64,000 bases of DNA, from NCBI GenBank assembly GCA_027061855.1, contig JAMOVT010000116.1, forward strand, positions 1 through 64,000, in the 5' to 3' direction. The DNA is from Flavobacteriales bacterium. GTDB lineage: Bacteria > Bacteroidota > Bacteroidia > Flavobacteriales > Flavobacteriaceae. Of the stretch, positions 6,174 to 21,007 are shown one piece after another. Position 1 is the first letter of the stretch; every line of letters begins with the position of its first letter. Below the pieces are notes generated by a model that saw only the letters and a list, made by a program, of their open reading frames with translations, was not told the DNA's origin and ran no database searches. The position numbers were made by a program, and so were the translations under genes.

Positions 6174-7061
6174 TTAGTAATTCCACATATCTTCTTCGTA
6201 ACTCCTAATTTCTTCTTTAATTCTTTGTGATTCTAATAGTTGTCTTAAGGCATTATCGTGAATATATTCTTTAATTTCCCGGTCTCCGTAAACGTTATCC
6301 TCTTTATAAATAACTCCACTAAAACGGCGAGCATTCATCAGATGATCATAATCCATGGGTTTCACTGTATTTCTCGGGTTAAATGCATAATATTCATGCA
6401 ATGTTAAACGTGCATCAGGATAAAATACCCAAAAAACTTCCACTAAATCAGGTGTCATACCGGCCGCCATTCCCTTCGGGTCAAATGCTACGGGAGCCAA
6501 TCCGAGTACACGATATTTTAGTTCGCCGTAACGTGCATCAAAGTACCAAATACCTCTTACATGAAATTCTTCGATAGTTTCTGAATTTACATGATAAATA
6601 TTAATAAATTGCTCGTCTACATGCCCTTCATCATTGAATTGATCCTTTCCGGCATCTGTTGTGTCAATAGCTGTCATTCTTTCTTTTAAATCATCCATAT
6701 TTAGCTTTTCAGTAAAATAACTATCGGCATATACTTTGGTTATTTTACCGGATTTGATACCGCTCATCAGTGCATCAAATAAAGATCTGACATTGGGCAT
6801 GGCTGATAAGGTATCGGTTGGGTAATATAAGGGAAGATTAAATCTCTCATCAAGATCTATTCTTTCCCAAACTTGTTTTCCCCAAAGAATATCTCTGTCA
6901 TCCGTATAGGGATAGGGGAGAGGCAAGCTGTGATCCATTTTCACCTGCTCTGGACTTTTCCTTCCGATTTCACTGGGATCTTTTGCATTAAGAATGTTAA
7001 ATTGAGCATTGACTTGATTTCCAAGCATCAGCAATGCAATTATTAATATTACTTTTTTCAT
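6174..7061 (-). CDS. gldN: Gliding motility / T9SS protein GldN
   Basis: Periplasmic/outer-membrane-associated component of the type IX secretion system that forms a large ring with GldK. It has a cleavable signal peptide (residues 1-19, ending VNAQF) and the GldN/PorN family sequence: a PEQV segment and LPYPYTDDRDILWGKQVWE near residues 48-66, and VFWVFYPDARLTLHEYYAFNPRN near 208-230. Length 295 is in the family's range. It lies 12 bases after gldM and is the last gene of gldKLMN, followed by a strong terminator. Confidence 0.96.
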   Translation of the reverse strand: MKKVILIIALLMLGNQVNAQFNILNAKDPSEIGRKSPEQVKMDHSLPLPYPYTDDRDILWGKQVWERIDLDERFNLPLYYPTDTLSAMPNVRSLFDALMSGIKSGKITKVYADSYFTEKLNMDDLKERMTAIDTTDAGKDQFNDEGHVDEQFINIYHVNSETIEEFHVRGIWYFDARYGELKYRVLGLAPVAFDPKGMAAGMTPDLVEVFWVFYPDARLTLHEYYAFNPRNTVKPMDYDHLMNARRFSGVIYKEDNVYGDREIKEYIHDNALRQLLESQRIKEEIRSYEEDMWNY

Positions 7062-7073
7062 TTGAACAATGTA

Positions 7074-8633
7074 TTAATTTACTATTTCTATAATTACCGG
7101 AGCCACTTTTTTAATTTTGTAGCCAGAATTACCTTTTAAATATGCGTTGATATTAAATATTTGAACGGTTTGGCCTCTTTTTACACGTCGTAACAAGCTT
7201 TTCGCTTTATCGTTTAGGCGCGTGCCGTTTACACGTAGGGTAGGCTGTCCGGGGACTTTAAAATCAAAACTCCTTACCCCGAGTTTAATGTCAAAGTCAA
7301 AGTCGGGCAATGAGGCTCCGATTGTAGAAACTTCCAAGTTTCTTTTGGGCATTTTGACCAATCCGCTTTCTCCACGTACTGTTCCCATTGGTGCAGGTAT
7401 ATTTTTTACACGGAAGGTTTTGCTATCGGACACCGGTTTTCCATTGGCTACTCCACTTACTTTAATATCTACTGTTTTTCCACGGTATTTTGTTACATCC
7501 ATGATGTATTTACCGGGTTTAATTTTTACTAATCCGGGAGCTGTTACTTTTACTTTATTATCTGGAACTCCGGGAATAGAGATTGTCATTGGATTTTTTA
7601 CCCCCCTGTAAACTACATTCATTTTATCAGCGGAAATCACTGCGTGATTGGGTACCGGAATTACTGCATAGGTCACGGTAAATGGAAGTTTTACGGGCTT
7701 GCCGTCTTCTTCAAAGACGATTTCTCCCTTAATATCCTTTTCTCCTACATTTCCGGCTGGTAAATCCAACTCAACATAGCCTTTGGTCAAAAGATTTTTA
7801 GGAACTTTACGTCCACCTATGATTACTTCTTTGAAGCTCATGGTGCTATCTACACGCCCCAAAGCTACTTTTCCTTTCACTTTTTCGCCGGGGAAATAAG
7901 CTGATTTCTCTAATACTACAACGGGTTCATAATTTGTAACCGATACATCTTGTTTAAGCTGACCACTAATTAACCCGGTATATATTTCATTTTCCGTTTC
8001 ACGGGCTTTATTGACATAGTTATCTAATTTAAATAAAGTAGCAACTGTAGGAAATCCTTCAAAATTTGCCATTAACCAAGGTTCCTTTCTTTTTTTTCCA
8101 TGTTGTACGTCATCTGTATTAAAACGTTTTTCGATGTTTTCTTTCAATTCGGGACTATCGGCTTTACTTAAAAGAAATTCACGGTATTCTTCCACTTTTT
8201 GTTTAAACTCTTTTCCTTTGGGAGTAATTTTTCCATTAAGAAAGAACATATTATCTACTGTGGAGCTTTTGTCTAGTTTTTCAAAGTCCACTTCACCAGT
8301 TTCTTTGTCAATGGCTTTTGTTTCCTTCGACATTATTGTATCTCTCAAAGCATTCATATAACGAACAAACTCATCCGTTTTCGCTTTTATTTCTTGAGCT
8401 TTCTTATATTTATCGGCATATTTGCCCGGTTGTTCTTGGGCACTTTTGGCCAATTGGCCTAATAGATTTGCATTAGACTTTTCTTTGATTTTTGCAGCCG
8501 TTGCTATTTCTTTCCCGGATTCTCCAAAAGCGGATAAAACTTTTTTCGACATCTGAAGAGCTAGCATGGCAATAAAAACCAAATACATCAAATTGATCAT
8601 TTTCTGCCTTGCGGATAATTTACCTCCTGCCAT
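7074..8633 (-). CDS. gldM: T9SS/gliding motor subunit GldM
   Basis: Inner-membrane motor rod: a dimer whose single membrane helix sits inside the GldL pentamer and whose four periplasmic domains reach towards the GldKN ring. The 519-residue protein starts MAGGKLSARQKMINLMYLVF; Arg9, the residue shown in F. johnsoniae to face the GldL glutamate, is present, and the membrane helix follows at about 13-33. The rest is periplasmic, first mostly helical and Lys/Glu-rich (40-220), then beta-rich with repeated immunoglobulin-like strands (220-519). Spacing to gldL (35 bases) and gldN (12 bases) indicates one operon. Confidence 0.97.
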   Translation of the reverse strand: MAGGKLSARQKMINLMYLVFIAMLALQMSKKVLSAFGESGKEIATAAKIKEKSNANLLGQLAKSAQEQPGKYADKYKKAQEIKAKTDEFVRYMNALRDTIMSKETKAIDKETGEVDFEKLDKSSTVDNMFFLNGKITPKGKEFKQKVEEYREFLLSKADSPELKENIEKRFNTDDVQHGKKRKEPWLMANFEGFPTVATLFKLDNYVNKARETENEIYTGLISGQLKQDVSVTNYEPVVVLEKSAYFPGEKVKGKVALGRVDSTMSFKEVIIGGRKVPKNLLTKGYVELDLPAGNVGEKDIKGEIVFEEDGKPVKLPFTVTYAVIPVPNHAVISADKMNVVYRGVKNPMTISIPGVPDNKVKVTAPGLVKIKPGKYIMDVTKYRGKTVDIKVSGVANGKPVSDSKTFRVKNIPAPMGTVRGESGLVKMPKRNLEVSTIGASLPDFDFDIKLGVRSFDFKVPGQPTLRVNGTRLNDKAKSLLRRVKRGQTVQIFNINAYLKGNSGYKIKKVAPVIIEIVN

Positions 8634-8668
8634 AATTGAATTTTTTTAAATTAATTTTGGTTAATTGA

Positions 8669-9322
8669 TTATTTTTCAACTTTCATTGCAGAAAGCATCC
8701 CTCCATAAACTTGATTTAAGTTTGCAAGGTTGTCTTTTAGTTTTGACATATTTTCTTTCAACTCTTCGGCATATTTAGTAGCTTCTGTATTTACTTCGGC
8801 ATTTCGAGAAACACTTTCGAGTTGAACTTGGTACAGGTTGTTGAGGTTTTCTAAATGAGTTGATGCCATAGCCAATTCTTCTGCATATTTTCTTGTATGA
8901 TCTGCAGCCTCTGTTGCTACATCCATACTTTTTGCAGCATCTGAAAGTTTATTAATGCTTTCACCCAATCTTTTCATCAACTCGGAATCCAATTGAGCTT
9001 CTTGAAGCATTTTATCTAATTTTTCAGAAAGTTTGGCCTCTATTTCTTTTTCGGTTTTATCTTTCCTTTTTCGTGGTGCGCCTCCTGCTAATTCCGGATA
9101 AACCAAAGACCAATCGATGTCTTCTTCTTGAGGTTCAAAAGCCGATAAAGCAAACACAAATGCTTCAACACCCAATCCAATCATTAATAATACGTCACCA
9201 GGTATTCCAAAGATGGGCATATGTAAGATTTTTCCTAAAGCTCCTAAGATTACTACTGCTGCTCCCAAACTATATACTACGTGGAAGAACTGTTTTATAA
9301 ATTTCCCTTTTTTCTTTGCCAT
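8669..9322 (-). CDS. gldL: T9SS/gliding motor subunit GldL
   Basis: Inner-membrane proton-channel subunit that powers gliding and type IX secretion. Two membrane helices (about 16-34 and 42-62) precede a long cytoplasmic helical tail (about 80-217). The residues reported as functionally important in F. johnsoniae GldL (Tyr13, Lys27, His30, Glu49, Glu59) appear here with a uniform shift of four as Tyr17, Lys31, His34, Glu53 and Glu63, so the motor should be active. It lies 49 bases after gldK. Confidence 0.97.
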   Translation of the reverse strand: MAKKKGKFIKQFFHVVYSLGAAVVILGALGKILHMPIFGIPGDVLLMIGLGVEAFVFALSAFEPQEEDIDWSLVYPELAGGAPRKRKDKTEKEIEAKLSEKLDKMLQEAQLDSELMKRLGESINKLSDAAKSMDVATEAADHTRKYAEELAMASTHLENLNNLYQVQLESVSRNAEVNTEATKYAEELKENMSKLKDNLANLNQVYGGMLSAMKVEK

Positions 9323-10934: not shown

Positions 10935-12080
10935 TTAAGCTTTATTTTTTTCTATAATTTTCTTGATACGTTCACTAATTTTATTACTCACAGCTTGTTT
11001 ATAATCAGCATATGAACATGGAAAAATTTTGTCTTCAATTTGTAAATCATTGATCTCCACCCACCAAAGTTCAGACTCAGGTTGTTTAAAAAATTTCAAA
11101 TTAATCAAATTATTTGGTACATGAAAGGTAATCATTTCTTCTTTATTTTCCAGAGATTTTAACAGAAAACTTTCGTTTTTTCCCTCCAAATAATACCAAA
11201 TAATTTGTGATAGGAGATTTTCTCCTTCTCCATGAGTGAAATTTTCAGGTATAAAACCGAATATCCCCAGGACTTTATTTTCTGTTCCAAGACCGCTTAA
11301 ACGACTTAGGCGGCAAGCTTCAACACCATTTAATCCATTGGGTACCGGTTGAGCTTGTAAAGGCATAAAAGCATATTCGAGAGAGGAAATATCAAGACTC
11401 AGAAAATGAGAAGTTCGCAATTCGGGCTCTATTGCATTAATATTTCCTTTTATTTCACCCAATGAAAAACAATCAATATACATTTTTCTTAGGAAATCCA
11501 AATATGCCGGAGGTTGATAATAAGCTTGACAACCAATGAGATGCAAATTGTTGAGCAAGATTTCTTCATCCCAAAGCATATTGGAAATGAAATTGGTATT
11601 CAAAATTTTTTCTGTATTTTTTTCTCCTTCGGGTTTTAAATCTATTTTTGAATCCACAATACTGCAATTCACAATTTTTTCGGATTTTGAAATCCCTTTG
11701 GCAATAGAATAAGTAAGAGCATGATCTTTTCCCAGTATAATGAGGTGTTTGCCATGTAAAAGGAAGTGAGAAATAATCTCTTGTATCAATTTCAGATTTT
11801 TTTGTGTATCACTTTCCAATACTAAAGTACCTAAATCAGCAATTTTCAAATTCCATTTTCCGGGAAAAAGTTGATAAAATGATTTGCGGATTTTACTGAT
11901 TGTATTATTCTCTTTGGGAATATGCTCATTTTCCAATGGGGAAATATCGAATATCAAAATCTCGGATTCTTCCCAGTCCGGAATATGATGTTCTCTATGA
12001 ATATCTATGTATTCATATAAATTGTGATTATGTTGTATATCTTCCGAATGAATATTAACAGGAGTGAAAAACTCAATCAT
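10935..12080 (-). CDS. Arginase/formimidoylglutamase-family protein with degraded metal site
   Basis: A 381-residue ureohydrolase-fold protein. The family landmarks can be located: LGKDHALTY (the GGDHS region, His120), SIVDSKIDLK (the DAHxD region, Asp143 / Lys145 / Asp147) and LSLDISSLEYAFMPLQAQPVPNG (the SxDxD region, Asp230 / Ser232). In active arginases and formimidoylglutamases the positions of Lys145 and Ser232 are His and Asp metal ligands, so a normal binuclear Mn centre is unlikely. Its ATG shares one base with the topA stop, and gldK follows on the same strand. A gene of this family next to gldK and topA is a recurring arrangement in flavobacteria as I recall it. Catalysis is doubtful; a structural or regulatory role is inference. 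Confidence 0.75.
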   Translation of the reverse strand: MIEFFTPVNIHSEDIQHNHNLYEYIDIHREHHIPDWEESEILIFDISPLENEHIPKENNTISKIRKSFYQLFPGKWNLKIADLGTLVLESDTQKNLKLIQEIISHFLLHGKHLIILGKDHALTYSIAKGISKSEKIVNCSIVDSKIDLKPEGEKNTEKILNTNFISNMLWDEEILLNNLHLIGCQAYYQPPAYLDFLRKMYIDCFSLGEIKGNINAIEPELRTSHFLSLDISSLEYAFMPLQAQPVPNGLNGVEACRLSRLSGLGTENKVLGIFGFIPENFTHGEGENLLSQIIWYYLEGKNESFLLKSLENKEEMITFHVPNNLINLKFFKQPESELWWVEINDLQIEDKIFPCSYADYKQAVSNKISERIKKIIEKNKA

Positions 12081-14518
12081 TATTTAATCTTCAAATTTTG
12101 TTTGGCTATTTCAAGAGTAATGCTTTCAGGATCTGTTCCTTTTGGAAGCATTACCTTTTTTTTGTTTTTTACAATATATAATCTTCCCCATTTTCCTTTT
12201 TGTATGCTTATACCTTCCTTATCCCATACTTTAACCATTTTATCTTTTTCTTTTTGTATTTTGTTTTTTATAAGGAAGTCAATATCTTCTTTACTTAGAT
12301 TCTCAAAATCAAATTTTTTAGGAACATTAATAAATAAATCATTCCATTTAATAAAAGGACCGAATCGTCCTTTTCCTTTATATACCGGTTTGCCGTCATA
12401 GGTTGCAATGGGTGCATCGGCAGCAAGTTTTTGTTCGATTAAGCGAGTGGCATCTTCCAAGCTTAATGAGAGCGGATCGGTATTTTTTGGAATAGAAATA
12501 AATTTTCCGTCATAGATTATGTAAGGTCCGTATCTTCCTGTAGCGATTACTACTTCTTTGTCCTTATATGTACCTATATTTTTGGGAAATTGAAACATTT
12601 CCAAGGCTTGCTCCAAAGTAATATCGGTTAAACTTACCCCTTTGGGAGCACTGGCAAATAAAGGCTTTTCTTCTTCATTGGATTCACCGATTTGCACCAA
12701 GGGCCCATATTGTCCTATTTTTACATATACATTTTTTCCGGTTTTCGGATCTTTTCCCAATAATCTTTCTCCTCGTGCTCTTTCTGCATTTTTTTCCACA
12801 TCCTCTACAATGGGATGGAATTTTTTATAAAATTCTTGCAGAGTTTCTTTCCAGGGCTTTAAGCCTTCGGCAATTTTATCTAATTCTTCTTCAATACCTG
12901 CAGTAAAATTATAATCAATAATGTGATCAAAATATTTGGTCAAAAAATCATTCACTACAATACCGATATCAGTAGGGACAAGTTTGTTTTTCTCGTATCC
13001 GTAATTTTCTTTTTCTTTTTTCTTGGAAATTACTCCGTTTTCCAAAATCCATTTGGTAGCAGTTCTCACTTGCGGCTCCAAAGTTTTTTTCTCAACATAG
13101 CCTCTTTTTTGAATGGTAGAGATGGTAGGGGCATAAGTAGAAGGGCGGCCGATTCCGAGTTCTTCCATTTTTTTTACCAATGCCGCTTCATTATAACGAG
13201 CCGGAGGTTTGGAAAATTTTTGGAGAATTTCAATATAATTGGCTTCAACTTTTTCATCTTTTTTCAATGGAGGAAGTTGGCCTTTAAATTCGGGTTCTTC
13301 ATTATCTTTGCTTTCTTGATAAAGGCGTATAAAACCGTCAAAAACAATTACTTCTCCCTTTGCAGTAAAAATATGTTTGTTTTTGTCATTGTTGATTTTT
13401 ACTACCGTCCGGTCTATTTTTGCATCTGCCATTTGAGAGGCTACGGAACGCTTCCATATTAAATCATATAGCTTTTTGGAATCAAAATCCATGTTAATTT
13501 CACGCACATCCGCTTTGGTAGGGCGGATAGCCTCATGGGCCTCTTGCGCTCCTTTGGATTTTGTTTTATAATTGCGCGGTTTACTATATTTTTCGCCAAA
13601 GTTTTTTTTGATAGTTTCCGCTATTTGTTTTTTGGCTTCTTTGGACAAATTTACGCTGTCCGTTCTCATATAAGTAATAAAACCGTTCTCGTAAAGTTTT
13701 TGAGCAATCATCATTGTCTTGGAAACACTGAATCCTAATTTACGCGCGGCGTCTTGTTGTAAAGTAGAAGTGGTAAAAGGAGGCGGAGGAGTTTTTTTTC
13801 CGGCCTTTTTTTGAACTTCCATCACTTTGAAAACAGCCTCTTTTATTTCTTCGAGAAATTGCTCGGCTTCTTCTTCCTTGGTAAATGATTTATCAAGTCC
13901 GGCATTAAAAGATTGTCCGGCATGGTTCTTAAAATTCCCGTTTACTTTATAACTTATTTCGGACCGGTGATTTCGTATTTCGTTTTCCCTGTCAACAATC
14001 AGGCGAACAGCAACCGACTGTACACGTCCGGCCGATAATCCTTTTTTAATTTTTTTCCACAGAATAGGAGAGAGTTCGTAACCTACCAAGCGGTCTAATA
14101 TTCTTCTTGCCTGCTGTGCATTGACAAGATCATAGTTTAAATCACGAGGATTTTCTATGGCATTTTTTATGGCTGATTCGGTAATTTCATGAAAAACAAT
14201 TCGCTTGGTCTTACTGTCGTCTAATTTCAGTTGGTTTTTTAAATGCCAAGCAATGGCTTCTCCCTCGCGATCCTCATCACTAGCCAGTAATACTTCATCA
14301 GATTTTTTACTAAGGCTTTTTAATTTTTTTATGATAGATTTTTTATCATCGGATACAATATATTTAGGAGTAAAATCTTCTAAATTTATTCCTATTTCTT
14401 TGGAAGGAAGGTCAGCAATATGTCCGTAACTGGATTCTACTTCATAGTCTTTTCCCAAAAATTTTTTTATTGTTTTTGCTTTGGCCGGAGATTCTACAAT
14501 CACTAATTTTTTTCCCAT
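12080..14518 (-). CDS. topA: DNA topoisomerase I
   Basis: Type IA topoisomerase that relaxes negative supercoils. The 812 residues contain an N-terminal Toprim domain (KLVIVESPAKAKTIKKFLG at 4-22, acidic DEDREGEAIAWHL at about 78-90), the catalytic body with active-site Tyr283 in FITYMRTDSVNLS, GRPSTYAPTISTIQKRGYV, and a C-terminal tail of glycine-rich topoisomerase repeats (GRYGPYI, GRFGPFI, GKWGRLYIV) in place of zinc fingers, as in other Bacteroidota. It is transcribed together with the arginase-family gene. Confidence 0.97.
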   Translation of the reverse strand: MGKKLVIVESPAKAKTIKKFLGKDYEVESSYGHIADLPSKEIGINLEDFTPKYIVSDDKKSIIKKLKSLSKKSDEVLLASDEDREGEAIAWHLKNQLKLDDSKTKRIVFHEITESAIKNAIENPRDLNYDLVNAQQARRILDRLVGYELSPILWKKIKKGLSAGRVQSVAVRLIVDRENEIRNHRSEISYKVNGNFKNHAGQSFNAGLDKSFTKEEEAEQFLEEIKEAVFKVMEVQKKAGKKTPPPPFTTSTLQQDAARKLGFSVSKTMMIAQKLYENGFITYMRTDSVNLSKEAKKQIAETIKKNFGEKYSKPRNYKTKSKGAQEAHEAIRPTKADVREINMDFDSKKLYDLIWKRSVASQMADAKIDRTVVKINNDKNKHIFTAKGEVIVFDGFIRLYQESKDNEEPEFKGQLPPLKKDEKVEANYIEILQKFSKPPARYNEAALVKKMEELGIGRPSTYAPTISTIQKRGYVEKKTLEPQVRTATKWILENGVISKKKEKENYGYEKNKLVPTDIGIVVNDFLTKYFDHIIDYNFTAGIEEELDKIAEGLKPWKETLQEFYKKFHPIVEDVEKNAERARGERLLGKDPKTGKNVYVKIGQYGPLVQIGESNEEEKPLFASAPKGVSLTDITLEQALEMFQFPKNIGTYKDKEVVIATGRYGPYIIYDGKFISIPKNTDPLSLSLEDATRLIEQKLAADAPIATYDGKPVYKGKGRFGPFIKWNDLFINVPKKFDFENLSKEDIDFLIKNKIQKEKDKMVKVWDKEGISIQKGKWGRLYIVKNKKKVMLPKGTDPESITLEIAKQNLKIK

Positions 14519-14615: not shown

Positions 14616-16268
14616 TTAATTGGTTGGTCGTCTATAACTTTTTTTGATTGTTTTGTTTCCGACTCTTGACATGGCACAACGGAAGCCTATATCATTTCTA
14701 GATAAATATTGGGGGTAAAAACGTCTTTGTGACGGATCTAACCAGTATGCTCTGTCTTTCCATGATCCTCCTTTAATTACTCTCACTTGATCATTAATCA
14801 ATGAAGTGCGTTGATTAGACTTATCAAACTCCTTCACTAATTCCGTGGAATCTTTATAGATTTGATGCATAGGAGCATTGTACATTCTCAGATTAGGGTC
14901 GGCATCAATATCTTCTTGTTCTTTCATATATTGTCTGGAGGATTCCAAATCACCGTCTCTATAACTTCTATTGTCAGCACGGTCAAAGTTTTGTCTCAAA
15001 TAGAGTTCGTTTTCATCAATGAGTTTGTTGGCAGGTGCTCCCGGCATTTGTTTCATAATAATCTTTCCGTTTGGTAAGGTGTCCATTGGGATAGAGTCCG
15101 GTGTAATTACTATTAATTTTCCGTTTTTATCAAAGGCTTGTTTGGTATATACATTTCCTCTATAGTAATTAAAGTCGTTGGCTTCGTCATCAATAATTTG
15201 ACGATATACATCAGCTACCCATTCATTTACGTTTCCGGCCATATCATATAAGCCAAAATCATTAGGGGGATAGCTTTTTACCGGCGCGGTAATATCTGCT
15301 CCGTCATCAGACCATCCGGCCAAACCATCATAGTTGCCGTCATCTATTTTAAAGTTAGCTAACTCTTTACCTTCGTTTCTTCCTGGTTTAAATGTACGGG
15401 TATAGTATCCTTTCCAAGGGTATATTTTTCTTCCCATCAATGAATTGTATTCGCGAAGACCGTTATTAGACTTGGCGGCATATTCCCACTCTACTTCTGT
15501 TGGGAGACGATAGGCAGGCATAATCAAACCTGATGTGCGATTTACCACATTTAAAGAAGTGTCTTTTTTAGATCTTTTGTTTTTTCTGTAATATAAATCT
15601 GTGTTTCCACCTAATGCTTGGTCGGGAGCGTCTAAATAGGTTTGAGTATTGAAAATGGTTTCTATACTAGGGTTTTGGATTACTTCAGCATTAAGTTTAC
15701 CTGATTTATATAAAATATATTCATTTACACGATCGGTTCTCCAATTACAATATTGTACAGCCTGTATCCAATTTACACCCACAACAGGGTACAGTGCATA
15801 GGCAGGATGACGCAAATAATTATTTACAAGATCTTCATTAAATCCGAGAGGAGTTCTCCAAACAAGAGTATCGGGTAATGCCCCTTTATAGATTTGTCCA
15901 TATTTTTCATCATTGGGAAAAACTTTTTTTAACCAATCCAAATATTCCAAATACATTAAATTGGTCACCTCCGTTTCGTCCATATAAAATGATCTGACGT
16001 GCTGTTGATTAGGAGTGTTATTCCATTCAGCCATAACATCATCTTGAACTTCCCCGAAAGTAAAAGTTCCTCCTTCTATAAAAACCAAACCGGGACCGGT
16101 TACTTGATTTTTAAATTCGGGATTAAATTTAAAACTTTCTTTGCCGTTTAAAACTTTTCCTGTTCCGCGAGATCGTTTAAAATCAGAGCTTTTTGAACTG
16201 CAACTAGACAAACCTGCCATAAGGATTGCTAAGGAAAAAAAGCTTACTAAAAATTTTTGTTTCATCAT
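14616..16268 (-). CDS. gldJ: Gliding motility lipoprotein GldJ
   Basis: Outer-membrane lipoprotein required for gliding and T9SS stability; in F. johnsoniae loss of GldJ lowers GldK. It is a GldK paralogue of 550 residues: lipoprotein signal peptide ending LSSC (Cys23), then an FGE-like domain with VFIEGGTFTFGE, FYMDETEVTNLMYLEYLDWL, YPVVGVNWIQAVQYCNWRTDRVN, YRLPTEVEWEYAAKS, YDMAGNVNEWVADVYR, VIKGGSWKDRAYW and IGFRCAMSR. It differs from GldK by its greater length and the inserted segment around 385-480. The next Met (residue 2) is an equally possible start. It lies between a promoter and a terminator, so it is probably monocistronic. Confidence 0.95.
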   Translation of the reverse strand: MMKQKFLVSFFSLAILMAGLSSCSSKSSDFKRSRGTGKVLNGKESFKFNPEFKNQVTGPGLVFIEGGTFTFGEVQDDVMAEWNNTPNQQHVRSFYMDETEVTNLMYLEYLDWLKKVFPNDEKYGQIYKGALPDTLVWRTPLGFNEDLVNNYLRHPAYALYPVVGVNWIQAVQYCNWRTDRVNEYILYKSGKLNAEVIQNPSIETIFNTQTYLDAPDQALGGNTDLYYRKNKRSKKDTSLNVVNRTSGLIMPAYRLPTEVEWEYAAKSNNGLREYNSLMGRKIYPWKGYYTRTFKPGRNEGKELANFKIDDGNYDGLAGWSDDGADITAPVKSYPPNDFGLYDMAGNVNEWVADVYRQIIDDEANDFNYYRGNVYTKQAFDKNGKLIVITPDSIPMDTLPNGKIIMKQMPGAPANKLIDENELYLRQNFDRADNRSYRDGDLESSRQYMKEQEDIDADPNLRMYNAPMHQIYKDSTELVKEFDKSNQRTSLINDQVRVIKGGSWKDRAYWLDPSQRRFYPQYLSRNDIGFRCAMSRVGNKTIKKSYRRPTN

Positions 16269-19585: not shown

Positions 19586-21007
19586 TTATAAAGAAAATTG
19601 AAGTTCAAGGTCTTTGTAGAATCGCATAAAATCCTTGTCGATGGATTTTAAACCGTCAATAGTCTTACACGCATGCAAAACCGTGGCATGGTTCCTATTG
19701 CCGATATTTTTTCCTATTTCCGCATAGGGTTTATTGGTTATTTTTTTGGCAAAATACATAGCAAATTGACGTGCTTGTACAATTTCTCTTTTTCTGGACT
19801 TGGATTGAATGTCACTAATATCTACATTGAAATATTTTGAAACCACCTCTTGAATCATATCAATCGAATATATTTTTTGCGTATTCTTGACATAATTCTG
19901 TAAAATTTCTTTGGAGAGTTCCAAATTGATTTCTTTATGATCGAAAGAGGCATGGGCAATTAATGAAATAATTACGCCTTCTAATTCACGAATGTTTGTT
20001 TTAATATTTTTGGCGATAAATTCGATTACTTCTTCGGGTAATTTTACTCCGTCTTGATAAAGTTTGTTAAGGATAATTTTTTTACGTGTTTCGTAATCGG
20101 GTTTTTGCAATTCCGCCGATAATCCCCATTTAAAACGGGATAACAAACGTTGTTCCACATCTTGCATATCCACGGGAGTACGATCTGCCGAAAGGATGAT
20201 TTGTTTTTTGTTTTGATGAAGATGATTGAAAATTTGGAAAAACACTTCTTGTGATCCCGGTTTTCCTGAAAGAAATTGGATGTCATCTACAATCAAAACA
20301 TCTATCATTTGATAAAAGTGGATAAAGTCATTTCTATTGTTTCTATGAACCGAGGTAGTGAATTGCTGAACAAATTTTTCCGTAGAAACATATAATACCG
20401 TTTTTTCGGGAAACCTTCTTTTGACTTCCACACCGATTGCATTGATCAAATGCGTTTTTCCTAGTCCGACATCTCCATATATAAAAAGCGGATTAAAAGA
20501 AGTTCCTCCGGGTTTGTTTGAAACCGCCATGGCAGCGTTTTTAGCCAACCTGTTGGAATTTCCTTCTATAAAATTATCAAATGTATAATTGGGATTGAGC
20601 TGTGAATCGATATGATTTTTTCTCAGACCCGGCAAAGCAAACGGATTTTTTATTTCCGGAATATATTTGTCTGTGGTTTTTTTGTTTTTTGTATCAATTC
20701 GAGGTTTGTTGATACTCGGAACATCAACCGTCGGATCTTTTTTGTTGTTCTTTTTTTGACTTAATTTGATACTGTAAATTAAACGTGCCTCTTTTCCCAA
20801 ATATTTTACTAAAGCCATTTTTAAAAGAGGTAAATAATGTTCTTCAATCCATTCATAATAAAATTTACTGGGTACTTGAATTTTAAGTGTATTACCTTGA
20901 AGAGCAATGGGTTTAAGTGGCTTGAACCAAGTGTTGAAAGCCTCCTCATCAATATTATCTTTGATAAAGAGTAAGCATTCATCCCATAATGCAACTACTT
21001 GATTCAT
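19586..21007 (-). CDS. dnaA: Chromosomal replication initiator DnaA
   Basis: AAA+ initiator that binds DnaA boxes and opens oriC. The 473 residues contain domain I (1-85, with CLLFIKDNIDEEAFNTWFKPL), a Lys-rich linker (90-130), the ATPase with NYTFDNFIEGNSNRLA, Walker A GDVGLGKTHL near 171-180 and Walker B LIVDDIQFL, and DNA-binding domain IV with the signature RNHATVLHACKTI at the C-terminus. It heads a three-gene operon with the phosphatase and methyltransferase. The 289-base AT-rich gap upstream shows no convincing DnaA-box cluster. Confidence 0.97.
   Translation of the reverse strand: MNQVVALWDECLLFIKDNIDEEAFNTWFKPLKPIALQGNTLKIQVPSKFYYEWIEEHYLPLLKMALVKYLGKEARLIYSIKLSQKKNNKKDPTVDVPSINKPRIDTKNKKTTDKYIPEIKNPFALPGLRKNHIDSQLNPNYTFDNFIEGNSNRLAKNAAMAVSNKPGGTSFNPLFIYGDVGLGKTHLINAIGVEVKRRFPEKTVLYVSTEKFVQQFTTSVHRNNRNDFIHFYQMIDVLIVDDIQFLSGKPGSQEVFFQIFNHLHQNKKQIILSADRTPVDMQDVEQRLLSRFKWGLSAELQKPDYETRKKIILNKLYQDGVKLPEEVIEFIAKNIKTNIRELEGVIISLIAHASFDHKEINLELSKEILQNYVKNTQKIYSIDMIQEVVSKYFNVDISDIQSKSRKREIVQARQFAMYFAKKITNKPYAEIGKNIGNRNHATVLHACKTIDGLKSIDKDFMRFYKDLELQFSL

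Follow-up and report, generated by a model that had tools for sequence, protein, structure and literature searches.

The gene that lies between topA and gldK in the window (the whole 64,000-nucleotide stretch of Flavobacteriales DNA analysed here) probably belongs to an ancient orthologous family of the Bacteroidia, a class name deduced from the named relatives, that is of ureohydrolase descent, lost its two-metal centre before its members diverged, acquired a C-terminal domain, and works by binding. The break in the metal-ligand set is common to the family across the class, marking an old repurposed protein and not a local accident, and the family is best described as non-hydrolytic and probably protein-binding. 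We refer to the gene as the pseudo-ureohydrolase gene; its locus is arranged as follows.

10935..12080, minus strand: pseudo-ureohydrolase gene, 381 aa (open reading frame; Pfam Arginase; alignment; AlphaFold model)
12080..14518, minus strand: topA, the upstream neighbour (family search)
14616..16268, minus strand: gldJ, directly upstream of topA in the window genome
9372..10748, minus strand: gldK/porK, the downstream neighbour (family search)
6174-9322: gldL, gldM and gldN, next after gldK

The sequence-only reading had placed the gene between topA and gldK, and this is confirmed, with all three genes on the minus strand. The topA stop codon and the pseudo-ureohydrolase ATG have one base in common, and 186 AT-rich bases separate the end of the gene from the start of gldK. 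Pfam Arginase matches residues 77-260 of the window protein with 54.2 bits (cut-off 22); the NCBIfam models hutG (30.5 bits, cut-off 229.15) and agmatinase (46.2 bits, cut-off 174.3) match it below threshold. In the window genome (G000, 95% complete) the single PF00491 match is the pseudo-ureohydrolase gene itself, and that search found no second arginase-family protein there; the gene had been called a paralogue, a term that is wrong in the within-genome sense. Since the translation, read by eye, has no obvious hydrophobic stretch at the N-terminus, we take the protein to be presumably cytosolic. A viral_contigs scan with the window protein gave one weak local match.

For the ligand survey, the alignment combined the window protein with 204 further family rows and with 17 rows of enzymes or divergent proteins. 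A row counted as family if it was the window copy or scored 85 bits or more, except that L232 was excluded as an intact enzyme, giving 205 family rows; L231, whose 48-bit match covers the C-terminal part of the profile, lies outside the count, although it may itself be a member that has diverged. Three sets of rows were removed before counting: loci of the window genome or of gldK/gldJ regions together with the viral match (L001, L002, L032-L037); nine class loci whose genomes the order set already represented (L118-L124, L129, L132); and nine rows whose protein was identical to that of another row. The rows are not independent (their effective number is 124.6 at 70% identity for 202 rows), and the named loci, the best 80 of 577, are mostly Flavobacteriaceae. 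The sites discussed below are located in the window as follows.

11721..11723, minus strand: His120, first metal-ligand position, kept (Q in 162/205 family rows)
11640..11654, minus strand: DSKID (D143-D147) replacing DAHxD, with Lys145 for His (alignment)
11385..11393, minus strand: D230-I-S232 replacing DxD, with Ser232 for Asp (alignment)
11415..11429, minus strand: E218-P219-x-x-R222, nearly invariant in the family, unconserved in enzyme rows (alignment)
10938..11165, minus strand: C-terminal extension, residues 306-381, with F330, W339, W340, C355, D359 and Y360 (alignment, model)

Positions 120, 143, 145, 147, 230 and 232 of the window protein align as H, D, K, D, D and S, and alignment and structural superposition agree with the earlier claim that Lys145 and Ser232 are replacements while His120, Asp143, Asp147 and Asp230 are kept; relative to the six-ligand set H - DxHxD - DxD of the enzymes, the window copy is deficient at K145 and S232. 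It is unlikely that aligning the sequences differently would bring the missing ligands back: no such alignment was seen, either by sequence or by structural superposition. Ligand loss, whose scoring across homologues and enzymes had been named at the outset as a check, proves to be family-wide and not confined to the window gene: none of the 205 family rows has six ligands, none has five, and every row has lost at least two, with four ligands remaining in 18 rows, three in 159 and fewer in 28. A window-specific loss, which we also considered, is ruled out by this count; the window copy is itself among the 18 rows with the fewest ligands lost.

The replacements follow a pattern. Position 145 is K or R in 125 of the 205 family rows, and position 232 is chiefly S, G, T or N. 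D143, D147 and D230 are kept jointly in 174 of 205 rows, and 16 rows, the window among them, keep H120 as well (H-D-D-D); at least one of the three Asps is lost in 31 rows, which still keep the family residues. In rat arginase I, Mn-A is bound by H101, D124, D128 and D232, and Mn-B by H126, D124, D232 and D234. By that assignment, the two ligands missing from the window copy are those that bind Mn-B alone; both are gone in 194 of the 205 rows. The window copy and 15 other rows retain every one of the four protein ligands of Mn-A. Family f4 stands apart as a side case: its copies L217-L221 read N/Q-S-x-S-N-D at the six positions, with both bridging Asps lost and the final Asp present, and their pocket appears to have changed in a different way.

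Comparison with active-type enzymes was made on a set of 27, consisting of 15 enzyme-grade rows from class genomes and 12 more (8 outside the class, 4 inside). The DAHxD His and the final Asp are present in 27/27 of these rows, and the exact H-D-H-D-D-D set in 18/27; the nine others have Cys at 230 (six rows), Asn at 120 (two) or Asn at 147 (one). Because nine of 27 enzyme rows deviate from the textbook set, single ligand changes alone do not mean inactivity. The family departs from the enzymes at other positions too. Within the enzyme loop SG(T/S)PF (161-165), position 162 is G in 25/27 enzymes vs 4/73 family rows and position 165 is F in 23/27 vs 0/73; Glu at 275 occurs in 27/27 enzymes vs 35/73 family rows. 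With N161-T-N-F-I165 at the loop and G275, the window copy lacks both of these enzyme features. The earlier proposal of a non-catalytic protein is well supported at the sequence level: no row has six ligands, the enzyme loop is gone, and Glu275 is kept in fewer than half of the family rows examined.

Conservation has instead moved from the metal pocket to other residues, which defines positions to mutate. W295 is present in all 205 family rows, and E218, R222, F330, W339 and C355 in 204 each. Residues that are conserved in the family and unconserved in the enzymes include R206, E218, P219, R222, W295 and six in the extension (F330, W339, W340, C355, D359 and Y360); such a shift is to be expected if the protein retains a function distinct from two-metal hydrolysis. 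A FastTree LG tree (which omitted L245) places the family in a single clade (73/73 rows, local support 0.962, stem length 1.0) and sets it apart from 27 Bacteroidota ureohydrolases. Since the family is one clade and the loss is family-wide, the ligands were most likely lost in a single event that preceded the divergence of the family, and in some lineages the set then eroded further. The window protein falls within this clade, has the C-terminal extension and carries E218, R222, W295, F330, W339 and C355.

The AlphaFold model of the window protein, built from 44 sequences, has a mean pLDDT of 87.8 and a pTM of 0.90. Structure searches show that it resembles formiminoglutamases, agmatinases and metformin hydrolase over approximately residues 11-311; against T. 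cruzi formiminoglutamase (4mxr), residues 17-305 superpose with a Z of 31.5 (269 aligned, 2.3 A). In the model superposition, the ligand motifs sit at the ends of, or just past, strands 112-117, 137-142 and 226-230, and the predicted fold is the arginase alpha/beta/alpha fold of the ureohydrolase superfamily. The likeness to formimidoylglutamase/formiminoglutamase (HutG; 3m1r, 4mxr) is twofold, 4mxr being the best structural match and the hutG model matching all 44 of the 44 aligned family members (best E 4.7e-30); the window protein differs in falling under the hutG cut-off, in having lost the ligands and the enzyme loop, and in its extra C-terminal domain. That extension, of about 75 residues, is a separately folding part: modelled alone (76 aa) it reaches a pLDDT of 82.3 and a pTM of 0.71, with four strands and two longer helices. 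The 27 enzyme rows each have at most 8 residues aligned at positions 318-381. Searches of the PDB gave no convincing relative of the extension (Foldseek best E 0.57; VIA best Z 3.5, 50 aligned, 3.0 A), a missing match that does not in itself prove a new fold.

We propose that an ancestral ureohydrolase of the arginase/agmatinase/formimidoylglutamase superfamily would have lost its two-metal hydrolase centre before the present members diverged, and that a C-terminal domain would have been added to the ureohydrolase fold. The resulting protein would not hydrolyse guanidino substrates; its role would lie in binding, with a scaffold or a regulatory partner in the cytosol the most likely form. Its likely contact surface consists of the C-terminal domain, the 206-222 helices and W295, and the frequent Lys/Arg145 may replace the second metal, holding the pocket together. 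That the gene so often follows topA and precedes porP/gldKLMN is a hint, though no proof, that the partner is encoded in the same region. Counting against this explanation, besides the deviating enzyme rows above and the fast divergence of the window copy described below, is the survival of the ligands: because three Asps are kept in 174 of 205 rows, with H120 also in 16, one metal could still be bound by the family protein.

The window copy itself is an unusual member. Its median identity to the named relatives (best 80 of 577) is 29.8% vs 53.8% for the Gramella copy L048, a ratio of 0.56, and the same ratio for its window neighbours is 0.81 for TopA, 0.83 for GldK, 0.79 for GldL, 0.90 for GldM and 0.86 for GldN; the window copy therefore evolves faster than the neighbouring genes. 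It has lost the family-typical residues R206, P369, W372, R338, R304, Y261 and Y127, and has kept E218, P219, R222, W295, F330, W339, W340, C355, D359 and Y360. Given this fast divergence and the lost family residues, its function may be relaxed or altered in its own lineage.

The association with topA and gldK extends well beyond the window. Among the named loci (the best 80 of 577), an automatic rule finds topA and gldK flanking the gene in 71 of 80; the other nine comprise four at contig ends, one (L086) missed through overlapping ORFs and four real exceptions (L044, L070, L074 and L111, the last with topA and no gldK). Across 83 loci from 62 class families, contig ends included, topA and gldK are both found in 28 families, topA only in 4, gldK only in 3, gldJ in 2, an epimerase in 11 and none of these in 14; topA is directly upstream in 32 of the 62, gldK downstream in 31, and all of topA, gldK and gldJ are absent from the visible stretch in 25 (contig ends included). 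Many lineages, though not all, bear out the earlier description of the gene as retained beside the gldK operon. A PorP-cluster gene, with one member typed as PorP, lies between the pseudo-ureohydrolase gene and gldK in many class loci, and in the gldJ-side loci (f62, f74) murF adjoins the pseudo-ureohydrolase gene. In the eleven epimerase families the gene is divergent from an NAD-dependent (HpnA-like) epimerase and not behind topA (for example L156 4903-5955 and L265 7388-8371); both members that were scanned match Pfam Epimerase. An RmuC-family gene comes next after the pseudo-ureohydrolase gene in two f52 loci (L265, L266). No clear pathway emerged from epimerase and RmuC as recurrent neighbours.

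The window protein has matches in 148 of the 196 genomes of the order sample; without the intact enzyme L235 of G012 the figure is 147. Of the 296 genomes of the class sample, 283 match the profile, 278 of them at family grade by E-value; G283 and G460 (E 1.8e-21 and 2.0e-34) are counted as family grade by E-value alone, and the count treats G252 and G285 as without a family-grade copy, though each may hold a divergent one. The phylum sample (n=148) includes 111 genomes outside the class, 48 of which match the profile; among these 111, no match extends past profile position 320 of 390, none is above 146.4 bits, and none has GldM over the cut-off (three f95 genomes have weak matches only).

Within the class sample, the gene and GldM are both present in 275/296 genomes and both absent from 6. 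A family-grade copy is lacking in 12 of the 296 that are GldM-positive, namely G252 and G285 together with G212, G291, G345, G368, G388, G401, G436, G458, G469 and G474; GldM-positive genomes of the order sample without a family-grade copy include, among those listed, G008, G009, G011, G012, G021, G030 and G039. SprA is present in 16 of the 17 GldM-positive, gene-lacking genomes that remain when G252 and G285 are set aside, G009 being the exception. In genome G413, which is 99% complete, the gene is intact (448 bits, with each of the twelve family residues checked in place), there is no GldM or SprA match, and the GldJ (8.9e-11) and GldK (4.5e-27) matches are both sub-cut-off; G250 has a copy and GldJ with no GldM, SprA or strong GldK match. 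The listed joint absences of the gene and GldM in the order sample are one family, f15 (0.3-0.6 Mb genomes), plus G050 and G074; those in the class sample are G313 (which has SprA), G218 (0.5 Mb), G427 (1.2 Mb) and G225, G262 and G320, which are normal-sized f45 members whose T9SS-positive f45 relatives G345 and G368 also lack the gene. Since SprA is carried by G050, G074, G313 and G452, the missing GldM in these four is probably a gap in the data. The phylogenetic profile first looked like strong support for a T9SS link; given SprA in these four genomes and the retention of the gene in G413, we do not take it as proof. GldJ, tried as a better correlate, gave no clean rule, the weak-GldJ genomes including both gene-positive and gene-negative ones.

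Several other accounts of the protein's biochemistry have to be weighed against a non-hydrolytic binding protein. An active one-metal enzyme with a different substrate, in which the Mn-A ligands stay and the Mn-B ligands become Lys/Arg and Ser, would fit the 174 rows with D143/D147/D230 and the 16, including the window, with full H-D-D-D, and changes at the first ligand may be tolerated: the enzyme-grade L250 and L252 have Asn at 120, and the entry title of 4myn names an N114H variant of T. cruzi formiminoglutamase, N114 being, we presume, the first ligand position. We nevertheless consider such an enzyme improbable, as whole lineages (31 of 205 rows, e.g. in f4) have lost at least one Asp yet keep the family residues, and the loop and E275 of the enzymes are unconserved in the family. 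Decay of the gene in the window lineage, to which the identity ratio of 0.56 vs 0.79-0.90 for the neighbours (best 80 of 577) and the loss of R206, P369, W372 and other family residues could point, is very unlikely for an open frame of normal length with a confident model and ten family residues kept. Non-catalytic relatives of arginase are known elsewhere. Chains 4rhi-4rhq, which we take to be those of the Trypanosoma brucei arginase-like protein, match the family profile weakly (E 0.13-0.85). The T. brucei protein is a known precedent, as described in PMC10820115, and differs in being eukaryotic. The Foldseek list is headed by metformin hydrolase chains, and in that system, according to PMC11271267, MetCb (MfmB) carries mutations at five of the six ligand positions and MetCa depends on it for activity; MetCb shares with our family the ureohydrolase fold, the loss of metal ligands and a non-catalytic role. 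A similar subunit of an active ureohydrolase is nonetheless extremely improbable here: MetCb is paired with active MetCa, whereas the window genome (95% complete) has no other arginase-family protein that could be an active partner, and the window family is class-wide. In a set of 56 genomes, 29 show a single family-profile match (those of G012 and G469 being enzymes; the profile could miss distant enzymes). The partner model is disfavoured by the single PF00491 protein in G000.

Two further readings concern what the protein is for, and both are compatible with the binding protein that we prefer. As a T9SS or gliding accessory, it would either partner GldL/GldM in the cytosol or help to assemble the products of the GldK-N operon, a role that we hold as a tentative, minority reading. 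The topA-gene-(porP)-gldKLMN order in 71/80 named loci (best 80 of 577) and gldK downstream in 31/62 families argue for it, as do the two other families that place the gene by murF-gldJ, another gliding locus, the 275 of 296 class genomes with both gene and GldM against 6 with neither, and the 0 of 111 genomes outside the class with an extension-reaching match or GldM over the cut-off. The T9SS core operon (porPKLMN/gldKLMN) is a direct neighbour in many lineages, and co-occurrence is imperfect: G413 keeps an intact copy with sub-cut-off GldJ and GldK only; 17 listed GldM-positive genomes (10 class, 7 order), 16 of them with SprA, have no family-grade copy; the joint-absence genome G313 carries SprA, so that absences may be gaps; and the listed order joint absences reduce to one family of 0.3-0.6 Mb genomes and two SprA-bearing genomes. 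In the window, moreover, the gene start overlaps topA while gldK is 186 bases away. The gene is found neither only with nor always with the T9SS (G413; 12/296 GldM-positive genomes), so the synteny is suggestive and the co-occurrence not decisive; an obligate T9SS role is not supported. The evidence does not establish the suggested T9SS or motility regulator, and a chaperone, a sensor or a regulator would each be conjectural.

A housekeeping role tied to topA or to general metabolism, with the position before gldK an inherited gene order, is in our view unlikely, if still worth considering. In the window the start codon overlaps the stop codon of topA; topA is directly upstream in 32/62 families, 4 of which show no gldK in the visible stretch (in two of these loci the sequence stops shortly past the gene); f4 keeps topA in 3/6 loci, with gldM located elsewhere in the genome for two of the three; eleven families have the divergent NAD-dependent epimerase instead; and G413 retains the gene without a detectable T9SS. 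Three families have gldK but no topA (one is contig-cut upstream), however, and the epimerase neighbour has no evident link to topoisomerase, with no shared pathway emerging. More speculative, and rather doubtful, is the idea that this class-wide pseudo-ureohydrolase, with a Lys/Arg salt bridge in place of the metal centre and with its added C-terminal domain, serves the secretion and gliding machinery as a cytosolic partner that has been overlooked (on the GldL/GldM side or in assembly) and that was secondarily kept for another task in a few T9SS-losing lineages.

The family-grade protein occurs in 278 of 296 class genomes, yet no NCBIfam model of its own was among the matches, and the window protein and two checked relatives fall below the cut-offs of the NCBIfam enzyme models that they match. 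Formimidoylglutamase and agmatinase are the nearest names and very probably wrong; copied labels would mislead pathway models. Literature searches returned no paper on the pseudo-ureohydrolase gene among the matches listed, and the word 'arginase' is absent from the main text of the T9SS papers PMC12635249, PMC8986121 and PMC5445135 (the last a review). The locus beside the T9SS motor operon makes a deletion test worthwhile.

Some smaller observations concern gene order and T9SS content. Genus g100 (family f52) includes G232, with GldM and GldK over the cut-off and no SprA, and G413, with none of the three over the cut-off, and may show stepwise T9SS loss. In the window genome, gldJ, topA, the pseudo-ureohydrolase gene and gldKLMN form one cluster; gldJ lies hundreds of kilobases from the corresponding locus in two other genomes of the family Flavobacteriaceae (G017 and G026). 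Near the cluster, window positions 19586-21007 hold a putative dnaA-like gene, recognised by eye from its translation only.
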